Source: Alphaproteobacteria bacterium
GTDB lineage: Bacteria > Pseudomonadota > Alphaproteobacteria > UBA8366 > GCA-2717185
Assembly (NCBI GenBank): GCA_040905865.1
Contig: JBBDQU010000066.1
Span: 1 to 64,000 of the forward strand
Direction of reading: 5' to 3'
DNA length: 64,000 bases
Shown: positions 642 to 8,033 of the stretch, piece after piece
Layout of the letters: every line of letters starts with the position of its first letter
Numbering within the stretch: the stretch's first letter is position 1
The notes under the pieces: generated by a model
Told to the model about the DNA's origin: nothing
Database searches by the model: none
The model's input: only the letters and a program-made list of their open reading frames with translations
Program-made: the position numbers and the translations under genes

Positions 642-1358
642 TTACAACCTGTCGGCGCCCGCCCGCGCCGCGTAATAATCCCAGGCGCGTTCCATCGCCA
701 GCGGCCCGATCAGCGCTTCCGGCGTTTTTTCGATCTCCCCGGGGCTGAGATACGTCACATTGCCCAGCGGCATGGTCTGTAGCTGCAGTTTTGCATTCAC
801 ATGGGTATAGACGGCGGCGAGCGTCACTTCCCGGATGCTGGCGCCGGTCACGGTACAGCCATGGCCGCGCATCAGCACGACCCGCGCATCGCCCAGCGCC
901 CGCGCCATGTCGCGCGCCTGTTCCATATCGGTCACCAGCAGCGACGTATCGCCGAACCGGTCCGCGATATCCCATACGGGGACATGGGCGCCAATGACTC
1001 CGGTCGTGTGCACCAGCGGGCGCAGCGGCGTCTTCGTCACTGTGAAGGGGATGATTTCATGCGCGTGGTTATGGATGACCGCATGCACATCCGGCCGGGC
1101 TTCGTAAATGGCGCCATGGATATGCCGTTCGGCATAGGGTTTGCGGTCGTCCTTGCCGATACTGTCGCCGGTCAGGTGAAATTCCATGATGTCGGCGGCG
1201 GTTACCAGCGACGGGCTGCGCGACCGCGAAATAAAATACTGGTCCGGTTTTCCGGGATTTCGCGCGCTGACATGGCCAAAGGCATCGGCGATGCCTTCAT
1301 GGGCCAGAATGCGGTTCGCGATCACGATATCGCGCTTGATTTCGGTAATCCTGAACAT
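642..1358 (-). CDS. Class II aldolase/adducin family protein
   Basis: This 238-residue protein belongs to the zinc-dependent class II aldolase/adducin family (fuculose-phosphate aldolase, RhaD and related epimerases or decarboxylases). Visible features are FGHVSAR near residue 28, the metal-binding pair HNHAHE near residue 97, and a second metal histidine in MRGHGCTVTG near residue 164. These fit a cytosolic lyase cleaving a C-C bond in a hydroxylated acid or sugar phosphate. A GAGG ribosome site precedes the ATG. It is the last gene of a seven-gene minus-strand operon, 48 bases after the SDR dehydrogenase, which suggests it acts on a product of that enzyme or of the LuxC/LuxE pair. The substrate cannot be read from sequence. 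Confidence 0.85.
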   Translation of the reverse strand: MFRITEIKRDIVIANRILAHEGIADAFGHVSARNPGKPDQYFISRSRSPSLVTAADIMEFHLTGDSIGKDDRKPYAERHIHGAIYEARPDVHAVIHNHAHEIIPFTVTKTPLRPLVHTTGVIGAHVPVWDIADRFGDTSLLVTDMEQARDMARALGDARVVLMRGHGCTVTGASIREVTLAAVYTHVNAKLQLQTMPLGNVTYLSPGEIEKTPEALIGPLAMERAWDYYAARAGADRL

Positions 1359-1406
1359 CCCGGTCGCCTCAAGAGACGGGCCCCGCTGGCCCGCCCGGCG
1401 CGGATG

Positions 1407-2174
1407 CTACCCCATCACCAGCCCGCCATCCACAAATAGCGTCTGGCCGGTCATGAACCGGCTCCATTCGGAAGCGAGGAACAGGACCGGGCCGGTCACG
1501 TCCTCCGGCGTCGCGATGCGGCGCAGCGGGGTCTGTTCGATGATGGCGTCCTTTACCGCTTCCTTCGTACCGCGGCTGGCATCGGTCGGATAGACCAGCC
1601 CGGGGGCGACGCAGTTGACGCGGACACCCAGGGGTCCCAGTTCCGCCGCCAGCGTGCGGCTGAACCCGACCAGCGCGGATTTGGCGGTGGTATATTCGTG
1701 ATAGGGGACGACCGCGCGCGCGATGAGGTCGGTTGCGATATTGACGATGCTGCCCGTCGCCCGCCGCGTCATCACCGGCGACACCGCATGGCACAGGTTG
1801 AAGGTGGATTGCAGCGCGCTGTCGACCTGGTCGCGGTAATCGGTCCAGTCCAGTTCGTCGAATCTTTTACGGTTATCCGGATCGAAGGCGTAGGGACGGA
1901 AGGCATTGTTGATGACGGCATCGATCCGGCCGAACTCCTCCGCCACCGTATCGACCATTCGCTGCATGGCGGTTCCGTCGGTGACGTCGGCCTGAATTGC
2001 CAGGGCGTCGCCGCCCGCCGCCTTGCAGGCATCGACAGTGCGGTTCGCGGCATCCGCGTTCCGCAGGTAATTGACGACCACATTGCCGCCTTCCGCGGCG
2101 AAGGCCCTGGCGACGGCCGCGCCGATGCCGCGGCTGGCGCCGGTGACGATGACAGTCTGCCCGCGAAAATCCAT
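1407..2174 (-). CDS. SDR family oxidoreductase (FabG-like)
   Basis: A classical short-chain dehydrogenase of 255 residues. It has the NAD(P)-binding TGASRGIG at residues 11-18, a diverged NNA motif (INNAF, near 89), the catalytic YTTAK (Tyr-x3-Lys, near 160), and the C-terminal GQTLFVDGG of the FabG/glucose-dehydrogenase group. It would oxidise or reduce a hydroxyl/keto substrate in the cytosol. It lies 19 bases after the ABC binding-protein gene and 48 bases before the aldolase, so it is very probably cotranscribed with the importer and the LuxC/LuxE-like genes. Family membership is certain; substrate and cofactor preference are not. Confidence 0.9.
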   Translation of the reverse strand: MDFRGQTVIVTGASRGIGAAVARAFAAEGGNVVVNYLRNADAANRTVDACKAAGGDALAIQADVTDGTAMQRMVDTVAEEFGRIDAVINNAFRPYAFDPDNRKRFDELDWTDYRDQVDSALQSTFNLCHAVSPVMTRRATGSIVNIATDLIARAVVPYHEYTTAKSALVGFSRTLAAELGPLGVRVNCVAPGLVYPTDASRGTKEAVKDAIIEQTPLRRIATPEDVTGPVLFLASEWSRFMTGQTLFVDGGLVMG

Positions 2175-2193
2175 CGTTTGCCGCCGCGCCGGA

Positions 2194-3183
2194 CTATTTC
2201 GGCAGCAGGTCGGTGCGCACGACTTTGGTGATGTCGATGTCGTTCTTGATCAGGCCGAGCAACTTGAACGTCGCCGCCCCCTGCTCCAGCGGCTCGATAT
2301 CGAACGCGCCGAGGCCGTGTTTCGCCGTCGTCGGCGAAATCGCGGACCGGTTTCGCAGCTTGATGATTCCCAGATTGACCTCTTCGTCCTTGCCGTTGAT
2401 CGCGCGGGTCATCGCGATCTTCGCGGCCTCCACCGGTTTGGCGATCATCCAGGCCGCGCTGTCCCTGTATGCTTCCAGGAAACGGCGCAACAGATCCTTC
2501 TTCGTGTTGTACATTTCCTCGGTGACGACAAACAGGTCGCTGGGCAGGTTCAGATAATCGCGTACCTCGATTACATTGACTTCGCCCAGGCCCTTCATCC
2601 TGCCGACAAACAGGCCCGTATCGGTTGCCGACGTGGCGTCGACCTGTCCCTGGACGACCGGCGCGAAATTGAGCAGGCCGGTGACCTCGATAGTGACGTC
2701 CTCTTCCGACATGCCGGCCTGCGCCAGCAGGAGCTGCAGGTTCTGGCGGGTGCCGCTGTTCAGGCTGTAAACACCGACACGCTTTCCTTTCAGGTCCGCC
2801 GGTTTGGTGATGTTGCGGGATTTCGGGGAAACCACATTGAAGACGTTTTGCGGGTAAATATTATAGATCGCGATCAGCTTTTCACCCCTGTCCAACGCGA
2901 TAAACAGGCTGGCGGGATCGGTGAAGGCGATGTCCGCCTGTCCCGACAGCATGTTGACGATGGCCGAACCGCCGCCGGTACCCGGCACGTAGACGAGATC
3001 GATTCCCTTCGCCTTGAAGAAGCCCTTGTCCGGTTCCGCCAGCAGGTTGGTGATTTCGCTGATCGCCGGGCTCCAGCCGGCAACGGTGACCGTGTCGAGC
3101 GCCTGGGCTGCCGCCGGCCCGGCCAGCGCCAGCATGGCGGAACAGACGATGAGGAAGGGGGTGCGCAGCAGCTTGCGGATCAT
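2194..3183 (-). CDS. ABC transporter substrate-binding protein (SsuA/NMT1-like)
   Basis: A periplasmic solute-binding protein of 329 residues of the SsuA/TauA/NMT1-THI5 fold. It has a signal peptide (MIRKLLRTPF then a hydrophobic stretch ending AAAQA, residues 1-27), then VTVAGWSP and a receptor core with GTGGGSAIVNMLSGQADIAF. Such proteins bind sulfonates, nitrate, thiamine precursors or aromatic acids. I chose the ATG at 3183 because it makes a 4-base ATGA overlap with the permease stop and starts a clean signal peptide; a longer reading would add 12 unconvincing residues. Permease and ATPase lie directly upstream in the operon. The ligand is unknown. Confidence 0.88.
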   Translation of the reverse strand: MIRKLLRTPFLIVCSAMLALAGPAAAQALDTVTVAGWSPAISEITNLLAEPDKGFFKAKGIDLVYVPGTGGGSAIVNMLSGQADIAFTDPASLFIALDRGEKLIAIYNIYPQNVFNVVSPKSRNITKPADLKGKRVGVYSLNSGTRQNLQLLLAQAGMSEEDVTIEVTGLLNFAPVVQGQVDATSATDTGLFVGRMKGLGEVNVIEVRDYLNLPSDLFVVTEEMYNTKKDLLRRFLEAYRDSAAWMIAKPVEAAKIAMTRAINGKDEEVNLGIIKLRNRSAISPTTAKHGLGAFDIEPLEQGAATFKLLGLIKNDIDITKVVRTDLLPK

Positions 3184-3938
3184 TGTTCGGTTCCTGTCAC
3201 ATGTTTGCGAAGCAGCCATTTTTCGAACCAGATTGTCGCCTGAAAGAGGAGCATTCCAAGTATCGTTATGACGATCAGTACGGCGAACATCAAGGGCGAG
3301 TCCATCATCCCCTGCGAGGCGATGATCAGCGCGCCCAGCCCTTCACGCCCGCCGATGAATTCGCCGACCACCGCGCCGACCAGCGACAGCACCACAGCGA
3401 CCCGGAACCCGGCCATGATCACCGGCAGACCGGCAGGGATTTTCAGCCGCAGCAGGGTCTGCATTCGCGTCGCGCCCAGCATGCGAAACAGTTCTCGCTT
3501 CTGCGGGTCGACATGCTGGATCGCGGTCAGCGTGTTCTCCAGCAACGGAAAGAAACAGATCAGCGCCGTGATGACCACGATGGAGGTCATGCCGAAACCG
3601 AACCAGATGATAAACAGCGGCGCCAGCGCCAGCTTCGGAATCACCTGACTGGCGATGATATAGGGATACAGGATTCGGCGCAAAAAGGCGGATTCGCCCA
3701 GCACGACGCCGCAGACAAACCCGACGATGCAGCCCGTGGCGAGCCCGAGCAGCATTTCCGCCGCCGTCAGCCAGATATGCGGCAGCAGGTAGCCGCTGGT
3801 CAGCCCGCTCCACAGCGTGTCGAGCACCGCCGACAGCGACGGCAGCACCAGTTCGGGAAAGCCGGAAACGCGGGAAAACACTTCCCAGCCAATCAGGAAG
3901 GCGACGAACAGCGCGGCGGAAATCAGCCTGTGTGTCAT
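3180..3938 (-). CDS. ABC transporter permease (SsuC/TauC-like)
   Basis: An inner-membrane permease of about 252 residues with some six hydrophobic helices. The inner-membrane loop EFIGGREGLGALIIASQG is the EAA-type contact for the ATPase and is typical of the SsuC/TauC/NrtB branch. The start at 3938 gives MTHRLISAALFV and overlaps the ATPase stop as ATGA; the same overlap recurs at its own 3' end with the binding-protein gene. This tight coupling shows a single importer unit. The transported compound is presumably the substrate of the linked reductase/aldolase enzymes, which is inference. Confidence 0.88.
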   Translation of the reverse strand: MTHRLISAALFVAFLIGWEVFSRVSGFPELVLPSLSAVLDTLWSGLTSGYLLPHIWLTAAEMLLGLATGCIVGFVCGVVLGESAFLRRILYPYIIASQVIPKLALAPLFIIWFGFGMTSIVVITALICFFPLLENTLTAIQHVDPQKRELFRMLGATRMQTLLRLKIPAGLPVIMAGFRVAVVLSLVGAVVGEFIGGREGLGALIIASQGMMDSPLMFAVLIVITILGMLLFQATIWFEKWLLRKHVTGTEQ

Positions 3939-4690
3939 GCCGGTACATCCATCGCATGGCGGACATCCGCGCACAGCGCGGTGAAGTTCTGAGTGAACCG
4001 GATTTCCCCGTCGCGCGGCCGGGGCAAGGGGATCGTCAGGTCGCGGATCAGCCGCCCGCGATCCATCACCGCAACCCGGTCGGCCAGATACACGGCTTCA
4101 CGGATGTCATGGGTCACGAACATTACCGTCGTGTTGCGCAGCCGGAACAGGCGCAGCAGGTCGTCCTGCAGTTCCTCGCGCGTGATTGCATCCAGTGCGG
4201 CGAAGGGTTCGTCCAGCAGCAGCACGGGGGGCTCCAGGATCAGCGCCCGGGCAATGGCGACGCGGCTCTGCTGCCCGCCGGAAAGCTGCGTCGCGTTGCG
4301 GTCGCCCAGTCCCGACAGTCCGACCAGCGTCAGCAGCGCCTCCAGCTTCTCCCGGTCTGCGGCGCCCGGCCGCCGTTTCAGCGAAATCGGCAGCAGGATG
4401 TTTTCCGCCACCGTCAGCCATTCAAGCAGGGTCGGCCGCTGGAACACGAACCCGATCTGTTCGCCCGGCTCGCGCACCGTCCGGCCCTGCAAGGTAATCG
4501 ATCCGCTATCGGGTTGCAGCAGCCCGGCGACAAGTTTCAGCAGGGTGGTCTTGCCGCAGCCGCTGCGCCCGACCAGGCAGTGGAAATCGCCCTCGCCGAT
4601 GGACCAGTCGAAACCGTCGACGATAAGTTCCGGCTTGCCGTCCGAATCCCGGTAGGTATGGGTGACGCCCCGCAGGCTTACGAAATCCAT
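3935..4690 (-). CDS. ABC transporter ATP-binding protein (SsuB/TauB-like)
   Basis: The 251-residue ATPase shows Walker A GRSGCGKTT near residue 42, Q-loop VFQRPTLLEW, signature LSGGQQSRVAIARAL near 137, Walker B VLLLDEPFAALD near 157, and the switch histidine in FVTHDIREA. It energises import through the neighbouring permease. It lies 10 bases after the LuxC-like gene and overlaps the permease by 4 bases. Sequence style matches nitrate/sulfonate/taurine-type importers; a more exact substrate cannot be assigned. Confidence 0.9.
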   Translation of the reverse strand: MDFVSLRGVTHTYRDSDGKPELIVDGFDWSIGEGDFHCLVGRSGCGKTTLLKLVAGLLQPDSGSITLQGRTVREPGEQIGFVFQRPTLLEWLTVAENILLPISLKRRPGAADREKLEALLTLVGLSGLGDRNATQLSGGQQSRVAIARALILEPPVLLLDEPFAALDAITREELQDDLLRLFRLRNTTVMFVTHDIREAVYLADRVAVMDRGRLIRDLTIPLPRPRDGEIRFTQNFTALCADVRHAMDVPA

Positions 4691-4700
4691 CTCGCCCGCG

Positions 4701-6152
4701 TCAGTCGGTATAGGGGGCGAAGGCTTCGGCGGCGGTCTCCGCCGAGCGTTCGACTTCGACCATGCTGATCAGGTCCAGCAGGTTAAACCGTCCGTCATGA
4801 TGCCAGCCTGCTTCGGGCGCCGTCATGCTGCCCAGCGCGCAGATGCGCGTCACCCCTGCTTCGCCCAATATACCCGACAGCCGGTGCAGCTCTTCCGGCG
4901 CGGCGGCAATGCCAGCCGTCTGCAGGAAGGCTTTGAACGGCGCAACCAGCGGCGCGACCTCGTCCAGCGCATCGACCGCGACAATGCGGATCGTCCGGTT
5001 CAGCCCGCTGGGGTCCAGGGTCGTCGCGGCGTCGCTGTACACCGCGCACCAGCTACCGGTTTCGCCGGCAATCACATCCATTTCCGGGCGGGACATCGCC
5101 TCGGTTTCCGCCGCGTCGCGCCAGGCGGCAATGCCGCCGGCTTCCGCGATGGTCAGTTCCCGGCGCGGATACTTTGCCTCGAACCCGGCCAGCGCATGGG
5201 CGACATATTTTGTGAATTCGCGCGGCGATACCCGGCCGCCGCGTTCCACGAAGAACAGATGCGGCGAATAACAGCCCTGCTGGTCGTAGCGCACCACGTC
5301 ATAGGCCGCCTGCCGCGCCACGCCCGGCGCCTTGCGCGTGTCCAGCGCGGCGCGGGAAATCATGCCGAAGCTGACCTTGTGCCCATGCGGCAGGTAACGC
5401 GTCGTGACCGGGATCCGCCGGCGCAGGTCGGACAGCGCCTCATTGCCGCCATAGGCGATCACGGTATCGGCCTGTTTCAGCAGCGCTTCCTCGCGTGCCG
5501 CGTCGCCGCCCTTCCACCATACGATGGCGAGGCAATTGGCGAGCCTTGGTTCCACTTCCGCCAGCAACCGCGCGAACCAGCCGGCGAACAACGGCTCGCC
5601 GCTCGGCAGTTTGCCGATGTTCCCCGCCTTGACCAGCAATCCGGCCACCAGGCTCCACAGCGGCAGGCCCGGCACATTCCCGGCCCAGACATGGACCAGC
5701 AGGCCGGGACCGACGGCTTTCGTAAAGCCGCCCTTCGGCGCGGGCTGGAATTCGTCCAGGACTTTCGGATTGGCGAAATCCTCGGCGATGAATTTCCGCA
5801 ATTCCGGCTTGCGGAAGGTTTTCAGGTAACCGGTCAGGCCGAGCCGAACCATCTCCGCGTCATAGCCGCTGACCAGCGGCAGCAGCGCCTCGCATTTCCG
5901 CCGGTACGGATCGTTGCGATCCAGCAGCCGGGCGATGGCGCGGTCGATTACCTCGACGATTTCCGACACCGTCATGGCTTTCAGCACGTCACGGCTCGCC
6001 TGTTTCACCCGGGTGGCCAGCGCATCCATCTGCGCGTCGTCCAGCACGGGCACCTCGACCGCCAGCGCCGCATTGCCGCGCGCGAAGTTCAGCACCCGCC
6101 ATTCGACGTCGGCCTCGGCAATGCCCGGAAGATACCCTGCCCGTTCGGTCAA
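4701..6152 (-). CDS. LuxC-like acyl-CoA reductase
   Basis: The protein resembles the LuxC family (PF05893), which reduces an activated acyl group to an aldehyde with NADPH. In light-emitting bacteria LuxC forms the fatty acid reductase with LuxE. Visible landmarks are HVWAGNVPGLPLW near residue 154 and RYDQQGCYSPHLFF near 288, where Cys294 matches the acyl-thioester cysteine of LuxC (Cys286 in Vibrio harveyi). The length of 483 is near the family's usual 475-480. The start is probably TTG at 6152, nine bases after a GAGGGG and 5 bases after the LuxE-like stop; no in-frame ATG lies nearby. It sits between a LuxE-like ligase and an importer. No luciferase luxAB genes are in the window, so light production is not implied. 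Confidence 0.82.
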   Translation of the reverse strand: MTERAGYLPGIAEADVEWRVLNFARGNAALAVEVPVLDDAQMDALATRVKQASRDVLKAMTVSEIVEVIDRAIARLLDRNDPYRRKCEALLPLVSGYDAEMVRLGLTGYLKTFRKPELRKFIAEDFANPKVLDEFQPAPKGGFTKAVGPGLLVHVWAGNVPGLPLWSLVAGLLVKAGNIGKLPSGEPLFAGWFARLLAEVEPRLANCLAIVWWKGGDAAREEALLKQADTVIAYGGNEALSDLRRRIPVTTRYLPHGHKVSFGMISRAALDTRKAPGVARQAAYDVVRYDQQGCYSPHLFFVERGGRVSPREFTKYVAHALAGFEAKYPRRELTIAEAGGIAAWRDAAETEAMSRPEMDVIAGETGSWCAVYSDAATTLDPSGLNRTIRIVAVDALDEVAPLVAPFKAFLQTAGIAAAPEELHRLSGILGEAGVTRICALGSMTAPEAGWHHDGRFNLLDLISMVEVERSAETAAEAFAPYTD

Positions 6153-6157
6153 ACCGG

Positions 6158-7237
6158 TTATCCCCTCGCGGCTTCCAGAAAGGCGTCGACCGCCATGGAA
6201 CAGCCCTTCGCTTCCGCGCCCTGCACCCGGCCCAGCAGCAGGAACCCTCCGTCGGCCGCGATCCCGGCGTCTTCGGTCAGGATGGCGGAAACGCAGTTGA
6301 AATGGGCCAGGTCGCAATGCACGATCACCCCGGTCTCGCCGCGCGGCAGTTCCGCCCCGGTCAGCGGGTTGATGATGCGGCTGCGGATCCAGTGCGGTCC
6401 GGATTTCACCGACGGCACGACTGCGTTGCCGTTGTCGTAGAACTGGGTGCTCAATTCGGTCATGCCGTACATGTTGATGCAGTTGCCGCGCGGCACGCCG
6501 AACGCCGCCGATAGCTGATCGTAGAAGTCATCCATTTCCAGTTCGCGCGACTGCCCCTTGAACCCGCCGGTATCGAGGATTCGGCTGCCGACCGGCAGTT
6601 TTGCACTGCGTCCCGATTCGCGCATTTCGTCCATCAGGTGCACGAAACTGTAGGTCGCGCCCAGCAGCGCATAGCGTTCGCCAGTCGTTTCCGCATGGTC
6701 CAGCGCGGCATACAGCGTGTCCGTATCCAGCCCGTCCGGCCCGATCAGGGAATGGCTGTCGACCGTGCCGAATTCGCGCTTTGCCAGCGCCAGGTAATGC
6801 GCCAGCGACGAATTCGGCATCATGCTCTCGTCCGGAAACAGGATGCCGATGCGTATTTTCGCGCGCCCCGCCATGAAGCGTTCGCGGAAATGCGTTACCA
6901 TCGATGCGTCATAGACCCGCAGGTCCGGGTGGTGGCACTTGCCGCGCAGCTCGCCCCGGGTCGTGCCGCTGGTCATGAACACCGCCCCGGCGTCTTCCGC
7001 TGCGCAACAACTCAACGTCAGGTCCTTGTAGGCGTTGATCGGTACCGCGGGAATGTCGCGCCAGTCCTTCACCGTCCGCGCCGTCCGCCCGCGCTGCTGG
7101 CAGAACCGGCGATAGGGCTGGTTATTCTCGAACTGGTAGGCGAAGACGGTCAGCGCCATTGCGTTGAACGCATCGTCATCCGCGCCATCGCGGTCGATGA
7201 AGGCGAGCAACGCCTCAATAATTTGCGCTTCTGTCAT
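6158..7237 (-). CDS. LuxE-like acyl-protein synthetase
   Basis: This 359-residue protein matches the LuxE/acyl-protein synthetase family (PF04443), adenylate-forming enzymes that activate a carboxylic acid with ATP and hold the acyl group as a thioester. It shows the P-loop-like MTSGTTRGELRGKCHHP (about residues 88-104), the conserved MYGMTELSTQFYDN near 267, and a near-C-terminal GCS whose Cys346 sits where LuxE carries its acyl-accepting cysteine. It is the first gene of the seven-gene operon, 5 bases ahead of the LuxC-like gene. Together they should turn an acid into an aldehyde. Chain length or aromatic nature of the acid is unknown. Confidence 0.82.
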   Translation of the reverse strand: MTEAQIIEALLAFIDRDGADDDAFNAMALTVFAYQFENNQPYRRFCQQRGRTARTVKDWRDIPAVPINAYKDLTLSCCAAEDAGAVFMTSGTTRGELRGKCHHPDLRVYDASMVTHFRERFMAGRAKIRIGILFPDESMMPNSSLAHYLALAKREFGTVDSHSLIGPDGLDTDTLYAALDHAETTGERYALLGATYSFVHLMDEMRESGRSAKLPVGSRILDTGGFKGQSRELEMDDFYDQLSAAFGVPRGNCINMYGMTELSTQFYDNGNAVVPSVKSGPHWIRSRIINPLTGAELPRGETGVIVHCDLAHFNCVSAILTEDAGIAADGGFLLLGRVQGAEAKGCSMAVDAFLEAARG

Positions 7238-7268
7238 GCGGATCGAACCTGTTGGCGGGAAATTGGCG

Positions 7269-7333
7269 CTAGATCAGATTCACAGGTTTGAATGGAACCG
7301 CAACCGGTTCCATTCAAACCTGATGTGCTACAG
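7269..7333. repeat. Palindromic intergenic repeat, copy 1
   Basis: Two perfect 18-base arms, 7283-7300 and 7305-7322, flank the loop CAAC. The element starts CTAGATCAGATTCAC and ends ACCTGATGTGCTACAG. The right half (7306-7330) matches 60696-60720 at 22 of 25 positions, and the ends resemble the copy at 18773-18842. It lies between pcm and the LuxE-like gene, both on the minus strand, and might end the pcm transcript, though no T-run follows the stem directly. Confidence 0.65.
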
Positions 7334-7358
7334 TACCCACTATCGGGCGGGAGGCTGC

Positions 7359-8033
7359 TCAATTCAAGCCGCCCAGCAATGGCACAAACGCCACGGGCAG
7401 GTTGCAGCTTTCGCGGACCTTGCCGGTTTCGGCGTCCTTTTCCATCACGACGAGCGACTGGGTCATGTCCTGACGGCCGAGCGGGATGACCATGCGGCCG
7501 CCGGGGCGGAGTTGATCGAGCAGCGCCGTCGGCAGTGTCGCCGCCGCCGCCGTGACAAGGATTGCGTCATAGGGCGCCTCCGCTGGCCAGCCATTGCCGC
7601 CATCGCTGTAAATCACCGTGACATTATCGTAGCCCAGCCGTTTCAGCAGCGCCTTTGCGTCGCCGGCCAGCGATGCGATCCGTTCGACCGTCACGACGGT
7701 TTTGGCAATTTCCGCCAGCACCGCCGCCTGATAGCCGCAGCCCGTGCCGATTTCCAGCACATGCGATTGCGTCGTCAGGGCGGCAAGCTCGGTCATGATG
7801 GCGACGATGTAGGGCTGGGAAATCGTCTGCCCCTGCCCGATGGAAAGGGGCCGATTCTGATATGCCAGGTGCCGCAGGTCGTCCGGCACGAATTCTTCCC
7901 GGGGCACCGTTTCCAGCGCGGCGACGACCGCCGGGGAAAGCCGGGTTATGCCCACGTAGCGTCGAGTCGCCGCCACCTCCCGCGCGATTTCGTCCAGCAG
8001 GTACCGGCGCGCCTGTTCGTTTGCATCGGTCAT
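7359..8033 (-). CDS. pcm: Protein-L-isoaspartate O-methyltransferase
   Basis: Pcm methylates isoaspartyl residues in aged proteins with S-adenosylmethionine so they can be repaired. The 224-residue product has the family hallmarks RPLSIGQGQTISQPYIVA (about residues 61-78), the SAM-binding motif VLEIGTGCGYQAAVLAE (near 92), and RLGYDNVTVIYSDGGNGWP. It diverges from the chaperone gene htpG with about 100 bases between starts; both handle damaged protein. The ATG at 8033 begins MTDANEQARRYLLDEI. The reading frame stays open upstream, but that part is antisense to htpG and not plausible protein. Confidence 0.93.
   Translation of the reverse strand: MTDANEQARRYLLDEIAREVAATRRYVGITRLSPAVVAALETVPREEFVPDDLRHLAYQNRPLSIGQGQTISQPYIVAIMTELAALTTQSHVLEIGTGCGYQAAVLAEIAKTVVTVERIASLAGDAKALLKRLGYDNVTVIYSDGGNGWPAEAPYDAILVTAAAATLPTALLDQLRPGGRMVIPLGRQDMTQSLVVMEKDAETGKVRESCNLPVAFVPLLGGLN

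Follow-up and report, generated by a model that had tools for sequence, protein, structure and literature searches.

The LuxE–LuxC locus and its gene products

The window, i.e. the whole stretch of 64,000 nucleotides that was analysed, carries seven open reading frames on the minus strand between positions 642 and 7237, all in the places and orientation given by an earlier sequence-only reading, and each scoring above the Pfam curated cut-off of the family named there. Specifically, from the upstream end these encode a LuxE-like adenylate-forming acyl ligase of 359 aa (6158..7237; PF04443, 60.9 bits against a cut-off of 24.9), a LuxC-like acyl-thioester reductase of 483 aa (4701..6152; PF05893, 297.6 bits against a cut-off of 21), an SsuB/TauB/ThiZ-type ABC transporter ATPase (3935..4690; PF00005, ABC_tran, 123 bits), an SsuC/ThiX-type permease (3180..3938, the reading frame being open to 3974; PF00528, BPD_transp_1, 106 bits), an NMT1/ThiY/Thi5-type periplasmic binding protein, ssuA (2194..3183, open to 3219; PF09084, 159 bits), an SDR family reductase (1407..2174; PF13561, 211 bits) and a PhtC-like class II aldolase/adducin protein (642..1358; PF00596, Aldolase_II, 104 bits). 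The membership of the first two proteins in PF04443 and PF05893, which had been proposed from the letters alone, is thereby confirmed by profile. The aldolase and SDR genes are separated by 48 bases, and the junctions that follow towards luxE are an interval of 19 bases, two ATGA overlaps and intervals of 10 and 5 bases. To judge from the reading frames, ssuC most likely starts at the ATG at 3938, overlapping the ssuB stop (ATGA), and ssuA most likely at the ATG at 3183, overlapping the ssuC stop in the same manner, while the TTG at 6152, five bases past the luxE stop, is the likely start of luxC.

The residues expected of an acyl relay are in place in both proteins. The catalytic Cys294 of the LuxC-like protein, correctly located by the sequence-only reading, matches the cysteine of the YDQQxC motif when aligned to LuxC of the structure 7xc6, and is a cysteine in all 84 aligned homologues; Cys346 of the LuxE-like protein lies in a KGCS motif, aligns with the KGCS cysteine of LuxE in 7xc6, is a cysteine in 82 of 82 aligned sequences and is the candidate acyl acceptor. 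The structure model of the LuxE-like protein (pLDDT 90) has as its nearest folds the PaaK-type aryl/aryl-acetate ligases, which adenylate aromatic or small acids, and the top 50 Foldseek matches of the model do not include LuxE of 7xc6, so that the assignment to the LuxE family rests on sequence (PF04443 and the 7xc6 alignment). PaaK-type aryl-CoA/aryl adenylating ligases are thus the closest solved folds, but they differ from the LuxE-like protein in that the latter is paired with a LuxC-type reductase and bears the LuxE C-terminal cysteine.

Outside luminous bacteria, homologues of LuxC and LuxE carry annotations as fatty-acid or acyl-CoA enzymes. With the LuxC-LuxE fatty acid reductase of luminous bacteria (7xc6) the pair shares the two families, the acyl-relay cysteines and the proposed adenylate-thioester-aldehyde chemistry, and this family membership is what speaks for fatty aldehyde production here as well. 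However, the sequences are distant and fall far under the NCBIfam equivalogs for luminous bacteria (66.6 bits against a cut-off of 550 for LuxE, 100.2 against 750 for LuxC), luxA, luxB and luxD are not found among the operon's genes, as had been stated, and the operon instead includes an importer and an SDR and is preceded in relatives by a TPP riboswitch (see below). Given these low scores and the TPP control in relatives, a fatty-acid or luminescence role was rejected; its probability is virtually negligible.

Conservation of the operon and its hosts

When public genomes were searched with the LuxC-like protein, 80 loci were obtained, to which plasmid records contributed those of Azospirillum and Pantoea. 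Of 83 loci, 65 have all six genes in the order luxE-luxC-ssuB-ssuC-ssuA-SDR, an arrangement far beyond chance; ten of the 83 have luxE-luxC-SDR alone, and most of the remaining incomplete loci end at contig edges. Pantoea (L008) carries luxE-luxC-SDR without an importer of its own. The six genes keep this order throughout, be it in Alpha-, Beta- or Gammaproteobacteria or in Bacillota, i.e. the neighbourhood on which the sequence-only reading had built its pathway is conserved in relatives from two phyla. Hosts include Azospirillum, Bosea, Polaromonas, Ramlibacter, Variovorax, Acidovorax, Achromobacter and Pantoea, as well as Domibacillus, Metabacillus, Ammoniphilus and Desulfosporosinus. The clade is nevertheless patchy in its distribution, since an even genome draw recovered it in only 6 of 398 genomes from the phylum of the window and 4 of 299 from the phylum to which a Desulfosporosinus carrier belongs. 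In the LuxC tree a single branch separates the 13 Bacillota rows from all others. One contig (L034) bears the label Flavobacteriales TMED123 and is probably misbinned, as its LuxC groups within Rhodospirillaceae and the surrounding sequence resembles that of marine alphaproteobacteria.

The seventh gene does not belong to this unit. Only two genomes, that of the window and a sister (L011, genome G001), have a class II aldolase next to the operon, in both 48 bases after the SDR and on the same strand; it is beside the operon in none of the other loci, and no match was found in two further genomes (G003 and G004). The aldolase is a passenger, and of the seven-gene operon described earlier six genes stand as a conserved unit and the aldolase, which is adjacent in the window and one sister species, falls outside it. 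As a pathway member it was rejected for its absence from the other loci and from G003 and G004, and the step in which an aldehyde was to be condensed through the aldolase was dropped with it. The pathway first proposed, a general use of acids with oxidation or aldol condensation as its last step, could appeal to the adjacent same-strand aldolase of the window and L011; with the gene missing elsewhere, and with thiamine regulation and thiamine partners in relatives, it has become highly improbable. The aldolase gene adjoins the operon's end in no more than two species, both of one genus. The protein reaches 91.9 bits against the NCBIfam PhtC (3,4-dihydroxyphthalate decarboxylase) equivalog, whose cut-off is 200, and a second copy, 50 percent identical, lies elsewhere in G001. 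Further neighbours that had been named by reading the sequence (Nudix, cysM, metH-like and formate-dehydrogenase-like genes) were set aside as chromosomal context, as they recur within one genus or clade only.

TPP riboswitches upstream of the operon

The link to thiamine was first seen in an Rfam scan of the Bacillota loci, where a TPP riboswitch stands directly before luxE in Desulfosporosinus. RF00059 scores above the Rfam gathering threshold before luxE, or before thiD-luxE, in 23 loci, and a covariance model derived from 17 of these detects a TPP riboswitch ahead of the operon in 79 of the 81 loci whose upstream region was covered, at a distance of 53-280 bases before luxE, or of about 0.9-1.0 kb where thiD intervenes. 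Because this model had been trained on some of the 81 loci, an independent whole-genome draw was used as a test, and the riboswitch was present in all eight of its loci (five by Rfam's own threshold; one of the eight, L107, is close kin of L077). The switching of the operon by TPP would follow from the aptamer profile. Nearly all relatives of the locus are thus thiamine operons predicted to be under TPP-riboswitch control, which overturns the earlier picture of an orphan catabolic pathway, and the six-gene operon is almost certainly linked to thiamine.

The two exceptions among the 81 (L010 and L011) are both in the window's own genus, and the window copy likewise has no TPP riboswitch upstream of luxE, be it at gathering or relaxed Rfam thresholds or by the covariance model. 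In all three, pcm precedes the operon by about 100-120 bases. A relative from the same family but another genus (G004) has the riboswitch upstream of its operon. The window's genus has lost the element and its operon now stands behind pcm. Therefore, the thiamine role is visible only through relatives, and the locus exemplifies a regulatory clue that is missing in the genome at hand while being near-universal among related ones. That the window copy itself has no riboswitch counts against the thiamine reading. The window genome keeps TPP riboswitches elsewhere, before thiC and before thiO-thiG, and the window copy of the operon, whose residues are intact, presumably works without the usual TPP control.

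The luxE leader of the window, i.e. the interval between pcm and luxE (7238..7361, minus strand), has no Rfam match and contains a strong hairpin, a near-perfect 18-bp inverted repeat of AGGTTTGAATGGAACCGG and its complement around a short loop at about 7283-7322; the leader with this hairpin has a minimum free energy of -51.6 kcal/mol (z -5.1). The hairpin is absent from the sisters L010 and L011 and has no second copy within the window, and a terminator, an inserted repeat and an operator are the candidate readings of it.

Thiamine genes in the operons of relatives

In several relatives the operon includes genes of thiamine synthesis and salvage. thiD is part of it at five loci (L038, L041, L047, L056 and L081), and Ramlibacter-type loci have the arrangement riboswitch, thiD, luxE. 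In Metabacillus (L087) the riboswitch is followed by luxE, luxC, ssuBCA, SDR, thiM, thiD and thiE; in Ammoniphilus thiM comes after the SDR. The operon partner in L037 is thiM. A divergent Bacillota genome (G264), whose LuxC is 43 percent identical, has luxE-luxC-SDR and a ThiL-ThiN fusion facing thiD-thiM-thiE (L105:2603-10379), with a TPP riboswitch of its own on each side; neither ThiC nor a true ThiG was found in this genome.

Independent evidence in agreement with the riboswitch comes from the binding protein. Its model, built from 43 sequences of the window and the loci (mean pLDDT 89), has as best solved match the FAMP-binding ThiY 3ix1 (Z 32.7, 2.8 A over 293 residues), followed by the thiamin-bound SBP 4nmy (Z 31.2) and Thi5 (Z 28.4), with SsuA (Z 27.3) and TauA (Z 23.8) lower, and a search by sequence yields the same names. 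The protein combines an NMT1 profile match with a ThiY-like fold and may bind a thiamine-type pyrimidine, although a shared fold does not fix the ligand. In the SDR, Tyr161 and Lys165 are present in 78 of 78 sequences and position 148 is Ser or Thr; the enzyme is proposed to take the aldehyde-to-alcohol step, and would then run in the direction of reduction.

The acid proposed to be reduced

Taken together, the operon quite probably represents an undescribed form of B1 salvage, in which an oxidised thiamine fragment is repaired by carboxylate reduction through LuxE and LuxC relatives in at least two phyla. Specifically, the ThiY/Thi5-like binding protein and the ABC transporter would import a thiamine-derived carboxylic acid, most likely 4-amino-2-methylpyrimidine-5-carboxylate (oxidised HMP); the LuxE-like enzyme would adenylate it and pass the acyl group to its own Cys346 and then to Cys294 of the LuxC-like enzyme, as the conserved cysteines suggest; as is proper to its family, the latter would use NAD(P)H to turn the acyl-thioester into the aldehyde by reduction; and the SDR would convert the aldehyde to the alcohol HMP. 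From there ThiD, whose gene is found in the genomes, and ThiE would lead to thiamine phosphate, and in relatives TPP would switch the operon through the riboswitch. Of the earlier claims, import, activation and reduction of a small carboxylic acid on the LuxE/LuxC pair is upheld as a prediction, with neighbourhood and families conserved.

The choice of the acid can be narrowed by asking which further enzymes each product would need. ThiE carries the HMP-derived pyrimidine into thiamine phosphate; HET requires ThiM and thiamine requires a kinase, whereas HMP requires ThiD alone. A member of the ThiD family occurs in 28 of 28 genomes. ThiM is above cut-off in only 19 of 43 carriers; it is present in all Bacillota carriers tested, and the 24 carriers without it above cut-off include all Azospirillum, Acidovorax and Variovorax, as well as Polaromonas except for one borderline match. 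Among thiamine kinases the search covered thiamine pyrophosphokinase (TPK), which is absent from 33 of 33 proteobacterial genomes, the window's included. ThiC occurs in all 44 carriers first tested, the window genome among them, so the operon would be a back-up or supplement route there. In contrast, G004 has the operon, the riboswitch and ThiG, yet no ThiC; being a MAG of 95 percent completeness, it may owe this absence to a gap. As a discriminator ThiG is informative only for G264 and G004. With ThiM and TPK missing from most carriers, and with one relative that lacks ThiC yet has ThiG, HMP is the likeliest product, and on balance the oxidised pyrimidine is favoured as substrate. The likeness of the LuxE model to PaaK-type ligases that adenylate aromatic acids points the same way.

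Other acids would suit the same operon and chemistry. If the acid were 4-methylthiazole-5-acetic acid, it would be reduced to HET for ThiM, which accords with the presence of ThiM in all Bacillota carriers tested and with thiM lying directly after the SDR in L037 and L087; indeed, thiM is in or beside the operon in three Bacillota loci, where a thiazole or a whole-thiamine acid would be suitable. As a general product, however, a thiazole was rejected on the absence of ThiM from so many carriers, the binding protein is nearest to pyrimidine binders and the operon partner in Ramlibacter is thiD, all of which makes this substrate quite improbable. Thiamine acetic acid, with its hydroxyethyl arm oxidised, could be reduced to thiamine itself; the TPP control in relatives and the close relationship of the binding protein to a thiamin-bound structure (4nmy) are in keeping with it, but without TPK the free thiamine would need another kinase in the proteobacterial carriers, and in G004 it is the pyrimidine synthase alone that is missing, so only a small share of probability goes to this acid. 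A modest chance is left to some other oxidised B1 vitamer, yet undescribed, since the link to thiamine is strong and the exact acid is reached by elimination; nothing specific points to such a compound, whereas HMP acid is a known metabolite that fits. 4-Amino-2-methylpyrimidine-5-carboxylate has indeed been reported as a thiamine metabolite (Neal and Pearson 1964, as cited in PMC7780320).

Relation to known thiamine salvage

The reduction of oxidised HMP proposed here resembles the ThiXYZ/ThiY FAMP importer with TenA/YlmB pyrimidine salvage (Jenkins 2007, cited in PMC11117688), in which a ThiY/Thi5-type importer likewise feeds a pyrimidine to ThiD; it differs in that the route described there proceeds by amine hydrolysis rather than by acid reduction, and tenA and ylmB are absent among the operon's genes. 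With the TPP riboswitch regulons that contain thiM-thiD-thiE salvage operons (PMC3766115), the operon has the regulator in common, as far as relatives are concerned, and at L087 and L105 also the genes; it differs by the added reduction module. The text of this broad 2013 survey makes no mention of luxE or acyl-CoA reductase. In the open-licence literature no paper was found that joins LuxE/LuxC to thiamine or to a TPP riboswitch (supplementary tables, closed journals and databases may differ), nor any account of such a recycling route. Vitamin salvage operons are known as a kind, to which the chemistry and the parts appear new.

If the proposal holds, it would (i) assign a widespread LuxC/LuxE branch outside luminous bacteria to thiamine, (ii) name a testable new chemistry of B1 salvage, acid reduction, and (iii) imply that the oxidised pyrimidine truly occurs as a B1 vitamer in soils and waters. 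The B1 vitamers measured in PMC10881298 are HMP, AmMP, FAMP, HET and cHET, and the proposed acid would extend the list for soil and sea beyond this set.

Further observations at thiamine loci

Some features of individual loci are recorded here for their own sake. L049 has a second TPP riboswitch-like element (L049:6533-6667), 2 kb further upstream than that preceding luxE. In Metabacillus, the gene directly after thiE (L087:17364-18134) matches APH(3') aminoglycoside phosphotransferase with 330 bits against a cut-off of 205, for which a resistance gene and a vitamer kinase are the candidate readings. Finally, each of two Desulfosporosinus genomes (G125 and G137; L069 and L086) has three genes of the ThiC family, of which two are neighbours, an arrangement like that for benzimidazole (bza) synthesis.
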